64,000 bases of DNA from an uncultured Mediterraneibacter sp. (GTDB lineage Bacteria; Bacillota; Clostridia; Lachnospirales; Lachnospiraceae): assembly GCA_944383695.1 (NCBI GenBank), contig CALWQP010000003.1, forward strand, positions 62,001 through 126,000, in the 5' to 3' direction. The notes below the pieces were generated by a model. That model ran no database searches. It was not told the DNA's origin and saw nothing but the letters and a program-made list of their open reading frames with translations. Shown here one piece after another: positions 16,653 to 61,810 of this stretch. Position 1 is the first letter of the stretch. Every line of letters begins with the position of its first letter. Both the position numbers and the translations under genes were made by a program.

Positions 16653-16874
16653 ATCTGTATCTTTGAAAATCCTGCATTTTCTGCTGGGGACTGCCGATCG
16701 GATGAACGCAGAAAACCGCAGGTCCTTATTTGCAACGCCTTTTGTGGATGGGGATGTGGGGATTCCGGAACGGAGCTAAGCCCCATATCCCCATCCACAA
16801 ATATGCCTTGAAATACTTTCCTGCGGTTTTCGAAGGCTTTATCTATTGCCCATCCTCACAGACAAATCCAGATT
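16653..16874. repeat. Long inverted repeat, copy A of an intergenic family
   Basis: The element fills the whole gap between the pdaA-like and groEL stop codons. Its left arm and the reverse complement of its right arm align over about 100 bases. Shared words include GAAAACCGCAGG (16711-16722, and inverted at 16820-16831). The centre is a perfect 15 bp stem: TTTGTGGATGGGGAT (16741-16755) against its complement (16787-16801). The right terminus is AAATCCAGATTT. It probably acts as a bidirectional terminator and shares ends with the copies at 26101 and 61447. Confidence 0.75.
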
Positions 16875-18500
16875 TTACATCATACCCATTCCGCCAGCAC
16901 CGCCTGCCGGTACTGCCGGTGCGGGCTCTTTAATCGTAGATACGACTGACTCTGTTGTAAGGAGCGTGGATGCAACGCTTGTCGCGTTCTGAAGAGCGCT
17001 TCTTGTAACTTTGGCAGGATCAAGAATTCCCTGTTCTACCATGTCTACATACTCTTCTTTATAAGCGTCAAATCCGATTCCCGGCTCTGACTCTTTTACT
17101 TTATTTACGATCACAGCACCCTCGAGTCCTGCGTTTGCTGCGATCTGATGCAGCGGAGCTTCCAGCGCTTTCAGGATAATCCTTGCGCCTGTCTTCTCAT
17201 CACCGTCCATTTCCTCTGTCAGTTTTGCAACTTCTTTTGCAGCGTGGATATATGCAGAACCGCCGCCTGCGATGATCCCTTCCTCTACTGCTGCCCTTGT
17301 CGCATTCAAAGCGTCCTCCATGCGGAGTTTTGCTTCTTTCATCTCAGTCTCTGTTGCCGCGCCTACACGGATAACCGCTACGCCGCCTGCCAGTTTTGCA
17401 AGTCTCTCCTGAAGTTTCTCTCTGTCGAAGTCAGATGTTGTCTCTTCGATTGCTTTCTTGATCTGAGCGATCCTGTCGTTGATCGCGCCCTTCTCTCCGC
17501 AGCCGTCAACAATGACTGTGTTCTCTTTCTGAACCTTAACGGATTTCGCACGTCCGAGCTGATCCATTGTCGTCTCTTTCAAGTCAAGACCGAGTTCTTC
17601 GGAAATCACCTGTCCGCCTGTAAGGATAGCAATATCCTGAAGCATTTCTTTTCTTCTGTCTCCATATCCCGGAGCCTTCACTGCAACTACATTGAAAGTT
17701 CCGCGCAGCTTGTTGACGATCAATGTCGTAAGAGCCTCGCCCTCGATATCCTCAGCGATAATGAGAAGTCTTGCGCCTGACTGTACGACCTGCTCAAGGA
17801 GCGGAAGGATATCCTGGATATTGGTAATCTTCTTGTCTGTGATCAGGATATACGGATCATCAAGAACTGCTTCCATCTTTTCCATATCTGTTGCCATATA
17901 AGCGGAAATGTATCCGCGGTCAAACTGCATACCTTCTACAAGATCCAGTTCTGTCTGCATTGTCTTGGACTCTTCAATCGTAATAACGCCGTCATTGGAA
18001 ACTTTCTCCATCGCGTCAGCTACCATCTCGCCCACAGCCTCGTCTCCTGAAGAAACTGCCGCAACTCTTGCGATCTGCTCCTTACCTTTTACCTTGCTGC
18101 TCATAGACTGGATCGCCGCAACAGCCTTGTCTGTCGCTTTTTTCATACCCTTTCTCAGGACGATGGGGTTTGCTCCTGCTTCCAGGTTTTTCATGCCTTC
18201 GTGTACCATAGCCTGAGCAAGGACCGTTGCTGTTGTCGTTCCGTCTCCGGCTACATCATTTGTCTTAGAAGCAACCTCTCTGATGAGCTGTGCGCCCATG
18301 TTTTCAAATCCGTCCTCAAGCTCAATCTCTTTTGCGATCGTAACACCATCGTTAGTGATAAGCGGTGCACCGAAAGATTTGTCAAGAACTACGTTTCTTC
18401 CTTTTGGTCCAAGTGTTACTTTTACTGTATCTGCCAGTTGATTTACGCCTTTTTCCAGTGCTGCTCTGGCTTCAGCCCCATATTTGATTTCCTTTGCCAT
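16875..18500 (-). CDS. groL: Chaperonin GroEL
   Basis: The 541-residue protein has the usual GroEL length. Landmarks include the N-terminal [19 protein letters not shown], the ATP-binding VTLGPKGRN and the [12 protein letters not shown] motif, the apical-domain region around residues 190-370, and the C-terminal Gly/Met tail GGAGGMGMM. It forms the 14-mer folding chamber with GroES. The gene follows groES in one CIRCE-controlled operon. The 126-base space between them is unusually long and highly structured. Confidence 0.99.
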
Positions 18501-18540
18501 TTCTATGCATCTCCTTATATTCTTTATTATCTGTATTACC

Positions 18541-18626
18541 CTCGCTAAGTGTCAGTGAAGATACCTCCTCGCTCTGCTCGGAGTATCGGCTGGAACACTA
18601 AGCTCGAAAAGACCTCGCTTAGTGTT
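18541..18626 (-). repeat. Structured groES-groEL intercistronic region
   Basis: AACACTAAGC (18594-18603) is a perfect inverted repeat of GCTTAGTGTT (18617-18626), which abuts the groES stop. The word CTCGCTwAGTGT occurs directly repeated at 18541-18552 and 18614-18625. A second hairpin, GATACC-TCC/GGA-GTATC, lies between. It could set groES/groEL stoichiometry by processing or partial termination. Confidence 0.55.
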
Positions 18627-18914
18627 TTATGCCTCTACAATTGCCAGGATATCATTCTGTTTTACGATGATATACTCCTCGCCGTCAAGTTCTACTTCTG
18701 TGCCGGAGTATTTGGAATATATTACCTTATCACCAGGTTTAACCTGCATTATAACGTCTTTTCCATCTATATTTCCGCCAGGTCCGACAGCAATGACCTC
18801 TGCCTCCTGCGGCTTCTCCTTCGCCTGTCCCGGCAGCATGATACCGGATTTTGTTGTTTCCTCTGCTGCTAACTGTTTTAAAACAATTTTGTCACCCAAT
18901 GGTACTAACTTCAT
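18627..18914 (-). CDS. groES: Co-chaperonin GroES
   Basis: The 95-residue protein is full length for GroES. It has MKLVPLGDKIVLKQ at the start, the mobile loop region around residues 18-32 (EETTKSGIMLPGQAKEKP), and the roof and C-terminal beta strands. It caps the GroEL ring. A strong TTAAGGAGG ribosome binding site precedes the ATG. CIRCE lies 27 bases upstream of the start. Confidence 0.98.
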   Translation of the reverse strand: MKLVPLGDKIVLKQLAAEETTKSGIMLPGQAKEKPQEAEVIAVGPGGNIDGKDVIMQVKPGDKVIYSKYSGTEVELDGEEYIIVKQNDILAIVEA

Positions 18915-18940
18915 TGTAATTCCTCCTTAAGCTTTTCTTG

Positions 18941-60344: not shown

Positions 60345-60354
60345 CACTTTACAT

Positions 60355-60507
60355 TCAGTTTGCTTTATTCTTTTCTGCCTGATTTTTTACCTTTTCTTCT
60401 TTTTGAGAAACTTCCCTGCTCTCTTTTCCATTCAGGCGCCGCTTCAGCATACATTCTTCGTCGATTTCGTATACGGCGTTCCCGTCAATGATTAATTTTC
60501 TTGCCAC
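60355..60507 (-). CDS. Conserved-looking 50-residue protein, unknown
   Basis: The GTG start at 60507 follows GGAG (spacing 6) and gives a product beginning ARKLIIDGNAVYEIDEEC after the initiator, with a Lys/Glu-rich tail ending KANKAN-like residues. I have an impression that proteins starting this way recur in Lachnospiraceae, but I cannot verify it. It ends 11 bases before the strong bidirectional terminator. No domain; the N-terminal half looks like a short beta-hairpin domain and the tail is likely disordered. Confidence 0.65.
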   Translation of the reverse strand: MARKLIIDGNAVYEIDEECMLKRRLNGKESREVSQKEEKVKNQAEKNKAN

Positions 60508-60677
60508 TGTCTCTCCAGTCCTTTCTCTTTGTTCTTTATTATTTTATGAACCGTGTCTAAAATGGCTACGCTCCTTATATGCCCTGCAGACAGCAGCTCG
60601 TTTTTACAGCTTTCCCCTGAATCATAATTTTATTCATAACGGCATATATATTTACAACGCTACGTGCAGGAGTTTAT

Positions 60678-61253
60678 ATGGACAAAAATCTTCCCGGACC
60701 GATGACACCTTTTGACGAGCTCGTCACTTCACCGGAACTCCAGATCATGAAGCTCATAATCCCTTATGCTCCTGCATCCGGGCGACAGATGCTGGCAGCC
60801 TGTGTAAAAGTCATGGAACTCAGAGAGACGATCCGGATCTTCTCTGGCGGCCGCGGCGTTATCAGGGCGCAGATGCTGGGGGATGAAGAACACTCGTCTC
60901 CCATTGACATACTGAACAGCTTCCGCCCTTATCTTAAGCCCCGCGAATCTGCCGCGTTAGATATGGTGATCAACTTAAAGGAAATGATGTCTGTTATGGA
61001 AATGATGCAGAACAGCGGTTCTTCGGAAGATGGAGGACCGGCTCTCGATCCGATGGATATCCTGTCCGGCATGCTTTCCCCGGAACAGCAGGAAATGTTC
61101 CACATATACAGCGACATGTTTTCACAGGCAGAAGACCATGATCAGAAAGGAGATAGTACAGATGGAAGAATGGATGAACAACCCGGCAATGAAGAATATA
61201 GACCCGGCGAAACTGGAGCTGATCCGGATGGCAGCGGCACGGACAGAGGGTAA
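60678..61253 (+). CDS. Hypothetical protein, first of an overlapping pair
   Basis: The 191-residue acidic protein has a helical core (about 15-155), with LQIMKLIIPYAP, MLAACVKVMELRETIRIF, LNSFRPYLKPRESAALDMVINLKEMMSVMEMM and DILSGMLSPEQQEMFHIYSDMF, and a Gly/Asp/Glu-rich disordered tail. No catalytic motif, signal peptide or membrane segment. CAGGAG precedes the ATG. Its last 92 bases overlap the next gene in another frame. I do not recognise the function. Confidence 0.72.
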   Translation: MDKNLPGPMTPFDELVTSPELQIMKLIIPYAPASGRQMLAACVKVMELRETIRIFSGGRGVIRAQMLGDEEHSSPIDILNSFRPYLKPRESAALDMVINLKEMMSVMEMMQNSGSSEDGGPALDPMDILSGMLSPEQQEMFHIYSDMFSQAEDHDQKGDSTDGRMDEQPGNEEYRPGETGADPDGSGTDRG

Positions 61254-61446
61254 GACAGGAAAAGACCTGGCTCCGGTCATGCTGGCACTCATCACCAGCG
61301 CGAATAAGCAGGGAATCCGCTTTACTCCGGATGAGGTCACCCTTATTCTTGAAATATTAAAACAGGGAAAAAGCAAAGAAGAACAAGAACAGATCGACCG
61401 GACAGTGCGGATGACCAGCTCTCTTTTTCAGAAACATAAAAACTAA
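61162..61446 (+). CDS. Hypothetical helical protein, second of an overlapping pair
   Basis: The 94-residue protein has MEEWMNNPAMKNIDPAKLELIRMAAARTEGKTGKDLAPVMLALITSANKQGIRFTPDEVTLILEILKQGKS, a compact helical bundle with no known motif. ATG 61162 sits behind AAAGGAGATAG, a better start than upstream codons. Overlap of 92 bases with the preceding gene implies coupled expression, and the shared helical, Met-rich style suggests the two interact. The stop abuts the long inverted repeat copy C. Function unknown. Confidence 0.75.
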   Translation: MEEWMNNPAMKNIDPAKLELIRMAAARTEGKTGKDLAPVMLALITSANKQGIRFTPDEVTLILEILKQGKSKEEQEQIDRTVRMTSSLFQKHKN

Positions 61447-61810
61447 CTGGAGGAGATCTGGATTTGCAGAGGAGACTGTCGCGAAGTAGATCATCCGAAA
61501 ACCGAGGAGCGTATTTCCGAACGTCTTTCAGTACGGGGGTGCGGGTGGCTACGGCAACTTCGTAATAGGATATAGAAAAAGTAAAAATCTGGAATCATGC
61601 GTTAAACTATACATCAGGATCGTCCAAGGCGAAGCCAGGTTGCCCGATGCACAGTTTTGTTTTTAGCATGATTCCAGATTTTGTAGTTTTTCTCACCTCA
61701 TGGAGCGGAGGCGAAGCCACCTGCACCCCCGCACTGAATACGTCTTAAATATTTCCTCTACGCAGTTTTTGGAAGATTTGCTCCATGAAAGTCTCCCCGA
61801 CGATCCGGAT
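61447..61810. repeat. Long inverted repeat, copy C, with nested hairpins
   Basis: It fills the 364-base gap between the helical gene and galE. The ends are AGATCTGGATTTGC and GATCCGGATTTA. The left arm has GAAAACCGAGG (61497-61507), related to the GAAAACCGCAGG of copy A. A 22 bp stem pairs 61529-61550 with 61715-61736 (GGGGGTGCGGGTGGCT type). Inside it a perfect 17 bp stem pairs AAAATCTGGAATCATGC (61584-61600) with its complement (61666-61682), and a third hairpin lies inside that. Confidence 0.75.

Follow-up and report, generated by a model that had tools for sequence, protein, structure and literature searches.

The 64 000 nt window analysed here (C3:62001-126000) comes from the 2.84 Mb, 65-contig genome of an uncultured Mediterraneibacter species and contains three copies of a long palindromic repeat, each occupying the gap between two convergent genes. 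Copy 1 has a polysaccharide deacetylase gene on its left and groEL on its right; copy 2 is flanked by the gene of a sporulation-type sigma factor and that of phosphoenolpyruvate carboxykinase (PEPCK), and copy 3 by a 138-aa open reading frame (ORF) that lacks a Pfam match and by the gene of an NDP-sugar epimerase/dehydratase. The genes adjoining the elements are core genes. An initial annotation of the window had described three gaps that run from one stop codon to the facing stop codon and carry sequence related by eye. Reading of the gaps and gene calls confirmed the first point, and the relatedness is now supported by an arm profile as well as by blastn, which matched one arm to two other loci with E values of 4.4e-21 (the best outside the window) and 8.0e-15. 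The end positions held only in part: the right end of copy 3 overlaps its stop (T|AA) but the left end begins 8 bases past the stop on that side, and copy 1 has an extra end at 16651 in addition to its main arm at 16668.

Anatomy and distribution of the repeat family

With one arm as query, blastn returned 34 matches in the genome at E<=10, and iterated nhmmer searches converged on a single profile of ~89 positions to which the left and the right arms alike belong. The sequence-only arm model (R1, built from 31 arms) identified 62 arms in the genome at E<=10, 55 of which were grouped into 26 sites; the other seven, weak and isolated (E 0.008 to 1.02), were left out of the site count. Chance likeness of the three copies was ruled out by the blastn E values together with this census. 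Within the window the profile, which includes the window arms, found six arms, all at the three element places, in line with the initial statement that the window holds no other copy. The same annotation had proposed searching the host genome and its relatives, naming a lack of further copies, or likeness no better than shuffled sequence, as grounds for giving up the idea of a repeat family; many further copies were found in both.

The unit is a long imperfect palindrome in which two inverted arms of ~89 nt flank a core. The order of parts is the terminus AAATCTGGATTTG, an arm containing a near-invariant GAAAAC word, the core and the inverted arm. Across four genomes we collected 44 two-ended elements of 110 to 963 bp, the larger of which consist of two palindromes and a linker. 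The well-assembled relative An76 (G067) carries 97 end motifs, with none for a reversed-pattern control, and nine full copies of 949-963 bp that are 85-93% alike (mean 88.8%). Among 100 loci, 19 contained two cores within 1 kb, and in 18 of these the cores were oriented plus then minus, the sole exception being L270 (minus and minus). The same core skeleton was also seen with other outer ends (L176 3952-4062, L339 3122-3231 and L342 3212-3321), indicating that ends and core evolve apart.

Folded as RNA, copies 1-3 each form a single extended hairpin (z -7.7, -7.5 and -13.4), and none of the shuffled sequences folded as well (0/200, 0/200 and 0/100, respectively). The initial description of conserved ends with a variable palindromic core was supported, and the cores of the three copies do differ. 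The R2 core model recognizes a full core in copy 3 at 105 bits and a shortened one in copy 2 at 45 bits, and gave no core match for copy 1. The copy 3 core reads, in order, as a stem, a GCTAARRRC / TTAACGC internal loop, a second stem and an apical loop. Two sub-threshold Rfam matches to copy 3 (miRNA precursor and sraL) were judged to be chance, and it was not assigned to a known RNA family.

Arms matching R1 were present in 20/37 genomes of the genus (own included) and in 0/24 from other families of the order. The R2 core was found in 48/58 genus genomes and 3/88 others, counts that are lower bounds owing to stricter filters and a maximum of 25 candidates per genome. The matches outside the genus were weak and numbered one or two each, in two genomes of the same family (G096 and G105) and one of the same order (G039). 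Two relatives are particularly rich in arms, with 144 (G013) and 131 (G029) matches of 150 scored, many of them close to contig ends. Relatives with names are mostly Mediterraneibacter. As far as these searches reach, the repeat family is non-coding and restricted to one genus of the Lachnospiraceae. Among the matches listed in the open-access literature, we found no description of repeats of this genus.

Table 1. Positions of the three elements, their parts and the stop codons they adjoin, with other features discussed in the text (window coordinates unless a genome and contig are given)
Feature	Position	Strand	Details
Element copy 1	16651..16875	.	shortened core; degenerate extra end
Copy 1 arm	16668..16756	+	nhmmer E 3.5e-14; alignment A3
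Copy 1 arm	16787..16875	-	E 2.7e-15; groEL stop completed by first A of arm (TA|A)
Element copy 2	26099..26347	.	stop codons overlapped at both ends (T|AA)
Copy 2 partial arm	26099..26133	+	E 6.1e-4
Copy 2 shortened core	26139..26227	-	model R2, 45.1 bits
Copy 2 arm	26265..26347	-	E 6.8e-15
Element copy 3	61455..61812	.	
Copy 3 arm	61455..61541	+	E 1.3e-14
Copy 3 complete conserved core	61577..61689	-	model R2, 105.1 bits (copy 3 in model seed)
Copy 3 arm	61724..61812	-	E 1.8e-9
Deacetylase TAA stop	16650..16652	+	gene 15792-16652; overlaps degenerate end of copy 1
groEL TAA stop	16875..16877	-	gene 16875-18500; one base common with copy 1
Sigma factor TAA stop	26098..26100	+	gene 25354-26100; two bases common with copy 2
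PEPCK TAA stop	26346..26348	-	gene 26346-27950; two bases common with copy 2
Epimerase TAA stop	61811..61813	-	gene 61811-62833; two bases common with copy 3
tRNA gene	4761-4831		
tRNA gene	48965-49037		
Split sigma factor gene in a relative	G001:C5:855438-855785 and 862683-863028		example

Stop-codon docking and core structure

The overlap between element ends and stop codons seen in the window is common in the family. In four genomes (our own, G013, G029 and G067), we scored an outer end with enough flank as docked when an ORF of >=80 codons had its stop ending -3..+1 of the first base of the element, with positions shifted by 10-80 bases as the control. Docking was observed for 84/134 outer ends versus 42/4020 shifted positions; by genome the counts were own 23/38, G013 18/33, G029 18/26 and G067 25/37. 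The docked stops comprised 67 TAA, 11 TGA and 6 TAG codons. At 45 of the 84 docked ends the joint was T|AA, such that the element supplied the last two bases of the stop. Widening the interval to -20..+60 brought the number of ends with a stop to 106/134. Several of the remaining ends stand shortly upstream of a TATAAT-like word, as seen by eye; the possibility that the element end serves as the -35 box of the next promoter was rejected, since the 28 stop-less ends scored no better than shifted positions.

Comparison of individual genes illustrates the joint. In one gene, the stop that is TGA in G062, where there is no element, is a T|AA joint with an element in G067, the codon position being unchanged. 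A second gene ends in TGA in G063, G064 and our own genome, and in TAA without an element in G015; it ends in T|AA on an element in G067, and in G062 a TAA is followed by degenerate element-like sequence. At the orthologous site L097/L382, one flanking ORF has lost its docked stop and reads into the element before stopping.

The elements had been described as confined to convergent junctions, which holds for all three in the window but not for the genome. By longest-ORF calls, 16/26 sites in the genome are convergent, nine are codirectional and one (L099) is divergent; the last was re-read as codirectional because of a 422-codon minus-strand ORF. The 59 gene junctions of the window comprise 9 convergent, 8 divergent and 42 codirectional ones, close to the eight convergent junctions initially counted, although two of the nine may be miscalls (one overlap, one long gap). 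Against this background (16/26 versus 9/59), convergent junctions are enriched for elements (binomial 9.7e-8), as the initial annotation had expected of a true family. The elements lie behind ORFs, between convergent or codirectional genes, which is the placement of repetitive extragenic palindromes (REPs).

A motif-anchored search identified 47 cores. Two parts of the core are fixed, namely GC-TAARRRC-AA opposite TT-AAC-GC, and an apical loop around A(C/T)TC...TCAGRCA, and the stems between these loops are wholly different among subfamilies. Covariation was assessed for 28 named pairs in an alignment of 19 cores; this seed (A5) was limited to 19 of 29 cores because the registers of stem 2 were inconsistent in the preceding alignment (A4). 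In this set 89.8% of cells were paired versus 65.0 when shuffled, double-change cells numbered 148 versus a shuffled mean of 50.0, and the covariation score was 0.669 versus 0.208 for shuffles and 0.10-0.17 with slid partners. A larger set of 92 matches, whose alignment was fitted to model R2 itself, gave 92.7% paired cells, 847 double changes versus 254.8, and a score of 0.760 versus 0.208. Two further statistics of the larger set carried little signal: further pair types were not above shuffles (83 versus 82.0; 211/500), and pairs with change on both sides were barely so (8/500). Pairing in stem 1 was partly selected, as the motif search demanded at least 14/24 complementary positions there; stem 2 (helix 3) was unfiltered and covaries independently. 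One-sided stem changes were rare, and single folds of four cores gave z scores of -7.5 to -10.5. Across the alignments, the loops of the core are conserved and its stems vary by matched changes on both sides.

The core also has a strand bias in wobble pairs. On the modelled strand, A.C mismatches outnumbered G.T pairs by 40 to 11 among 31 non-redundant cores (p 5.7e-5), and changing the redundancy limit gave 32 to 10 and 64 to 22; counted by pairs the bias was 17 versus 2, and by sequences 19 versus 3. An A.C mismatch is a G.T pair when read from the complementary strand, so the strand opposite to the modelled one shows G.U wobbles. It is apparently the folding of that strand that matters, with the qualification that the relatives compared are not independent. 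In the two-palindrome form, the wobble-bearing strand is read from the linker outwards.

Shared sites, unshared sequence and rearrangements

Flanks of 18/38 element ends in our genome matched those of element ends sampled from G013, G029 and G067. Among the other-genome loci that had been fetched and tested, four have flanks within the window, each of them at one of the three element junctions. Both neighbours were kept at the shared sites L111/L392, L098/L381, L097/L382 and L264/L394. Orthologous arms were not more alike than others, scoring 0.44-0.59 versus means of 0.52-0.58 for non-orthologous arms, a comparison in which 7/13 pairs were scorable (six lacked an arm, and one pair used an inner arm); greater likeness of orthologous arms was ruled out on these scores. 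As judged from these genome comparisons, the occupied gene ends are common to species while the element sequence is not.

At some shared sites the neighbours differ, marking the elements as joints of rearrangement. The element at L112 in our genome unites two gene ends that in An76 adjoin separate elements; in turn, one An76 element unites the deacetylase gene of site 1 with the epimerase gene of site 3. In two relatives the left gene was common and the right gene differed. The elements may have caused these rearrangements.

Other relatives lack the element at the same gene ends. The gap between the sigma factor and PEPCK genes measures 86 nt in G016 and 89 nt in G020, with an ordinary small hairpin, versus the 245 nt element in our genome, and the PEPCK matches in most relatives start precisely at the stop codon. 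As judged by eye, PEPCK is followed in three close relatives (G064, G062 and G014) by an ordinary hairpin and in An76 by a palindrome that looks decayed. The family arm and core are absent from the PEPCK ends of the three close relatives, indicating that gains or losses occur. After the deacetylase gene (44 of 80 loci given, among the matches listed), species carry short hairpins, other long palindromes or this stop-docked repeat family. L185, L186 and L187 display another family of long G+C-rich palindromes directly after the deacetylase stop, and L196, L198 and L199 a small palindrome like the GGGGACGTAGTAAAAT type. The initial annotation had missed the stop-codon overlap, the fixed loops with compensated stems, the sharing of sites among species, the tandem form of full-length copies and the rearrangements with joints in elements.

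Candidate origins and function

An explanation has to accommodate the observed copy numbers, anatomy, docking, covariation, shared sites with unshared sequence, and rearrangement joints. These elements are probably genus-specific, non-autonomous mosaic extragenic palindromes that dock on stop codons, are homogenized by recombination and are used as the 3' end of both flanking genes. Each palindrome has two inverted ~89-nt arms ending in AAATCTGGATTTG around a core hairpin whose loops are fixed and whose stems are free to vary but remain complementary, full-length copies joining two such palindromes, with cores mostly inverted, by a linker. A putative enzyme, acting on single-stranded DNA or RNA, would recognize the loops and ends and join the element to gene 3' ends, where the A's of the element would complete the stop codon. 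Recombination between sites would homogenize copies within a species and may also yield the rearrangements. Once resident, the hairpin would replace the ordinary terminator and form the 3' end of both convergent transcripts, by termination, by blocking 3' exonucleases or both, and we propose that the element is tolerated at convergent junctions and after stops for this reason. A terminator function, or the insulator function also raised initially, is a prediction from the DNA.

Several observations weigh against this explanation. We caught no transposition of the stop-docked family and found no empty-site pair with both neighbours conserved, most comparisons differing in neighbouring genes. 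Target duplications of 5 nt occurred in 5/44 elements versus 2.2 expected (12/300 shuffles), and those of k=2, 3, 6 and 8 were at chance level in the same 44 elements. No enzyme was found for the repeat family. The full copies in An76 are 85-93% identical and so not very recent. About one in five ends (28/134) is without a stop in the -20..+60 interval, and direct abutment could also arise by slow spacer loss at old sites instead of precise insertion. A simple terminator scan, which sees loops of 3-8 nt only, called nothing in the three elements.

Spacer loss is part of the alternative that the elements are host-made, vertically inherited bidirectional terminators, never mobile, homogenized by gene conversion at old junctions and eroded to the shortest form that keeps the stop and AAATCTGG. 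The minimal T|AA joint is what such erosion would give, short ordinary terminators also run from stop to stop (L175 and L180), and sites are common across species with diverged sequence. Like intrinsic bidirectional terminators, the elements place a hairpin between facing stops, and they occupy a junction that holds an ordinary hairpin in relatives; they differ in being repeated and hundreds of bases long, and no stem-plus-T-tract was called in the three copies with the loop sizes scanned. We nevertheless think this account unlikely, as copy number within the genus varies between no matches at all and >130 arms, the PEPCK gene of G064, G062 and G014 ends in an ordinary hairpin lacking family arm and core, and a terminator does not need a mosaic tandem form with a linker. 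Palindromic candidate structured RNAs of human microbiomes are comparable as motifs palindromic on both strands, 230/250 of which were predicted terminators according to the available portion of the source (PMC8040213); the four examples given in that portion come mostly or entirely from Bacteroidetes, unlike the present family, which may still be identical with one of the unnamed motifs (PMC8040213).

Derivation from an ordinary insertion sequence, as a miniature inverted-repeat transposable element (MITE) moved by cut-and-paste by a DDE transposase acting in trans on terminal repeats AAATCTGGATTTG, would account for the inverted terminal repeats, the lack of coding capacity and the size range, as well as for contig breaks at copies and the high copy number in some species. 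In the accessible part of the literature on MITEs, including SPRITE, RUP, BOX and ERIC, these too are short repeats without coding capacity that have inverted ends and form strong hairpins (PMC10969869). Such an origin appears improbable for the present elements. Target-site duplication was not clear, stop-codon docking is untypical, and a DDE element does not need fixed loops with compensated stems. In An76, the genome searched, there was no clear autonomous copy with the same ends and no neighbouring end pair clearly exceeding ~960 bp, some ends being unpaired and C22:190081 ambiguous. The mobile element suggested in the initial annotation is not supported in the form of a standard transposon. 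Stop-codon adjacency also brings to mind integron attC sites, folded sites behind cassette ORFs that go with an integron integrase; the neighbours of the present elements are core genes.

The elements are best read as similar in habitat to REPs and bacterial interspersed mosaic elements (BIMEs), and as new in size and structure. In the consulted extract of PMC3733652, REPs lie mostly between convergent or codirectional ORFs, many <=20 bp from ORF 3' ends and, in two species, often <20 bp away from where both convergent ORFs end, and their GTAG termini often supply a TAG stop. REPs within 15 nt (<16 nt) of a stop can act on translation, according to the part of PMC12306157 seen. The present family shares with the REP/BIME/REPIN systems of REP-associated tyrosine transposases (RAYTs) its extragenic location, mosaic palindromes, species-specific families and ends supplying the stop (PMC3733652, in part). 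It departs from them in size (~110-963 bp rather than the 20-40 bp given for REPs in the PMC3733652 abstract), in its arms and core with fixed internal and apical loops, and in its ends, which are AAATCTGGATTTG where REPs carry a GTAG or CGTC tag at one end.

Spread by the Y1 transposase of the genome, as in a RAYT system, deserves mention as a Y1_Tnp gene is present once in our genome and in 25/37 genomes searched, but we regard it as very improbable. The single RAYT-like gene (C11:31632-32432; L117:6632-7432) is flanked on both sides by palindromes of another, GGGGACGTAGTAAAAT type, which weakened its candidacy as a partner, the 15-kb Y1 locus (L117) contained no arm match, and no GTAG end was seen in the element, whose ends are AAATCTGGATTTG.

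A bolder version of the explanation we favour, which we hold only tentatively and consider doubtful, would make the elements a new mobile or recombining class whose substrate is a strand-specific folded RNA or single-stranded DNA with fixed loops and whose landing sites are stops. Under this version the element would complete the stop, sites would persist while sequence turns over, and sites would double as rearrangement breakpoints; strand specificity is invoked because A.C mismatches exceed G.T pairs on the modelled strand. If the favoured explanation is correct, a whole genus of common gut bacteria would have, at the ends of many genes, a repeated hairpin that replaced ordinary terminators, with a folded core searchable by covariance model. 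It would offer a testable system for how extragenic palindromes choose gene ends, bear on the within-species likeness of repeats and their shaping of chromosome rearrangement, and explain contig breaks at copies in assemblies of the genus.

Outside the elements, the only Rfam families in the window at gathering thresholds were two tRNAs, and no match fell on the elements. The sigma factor gene beside copy 2 is split by ~7 kb in some relatives, as would be expected of a skin-like insertion in sigK.

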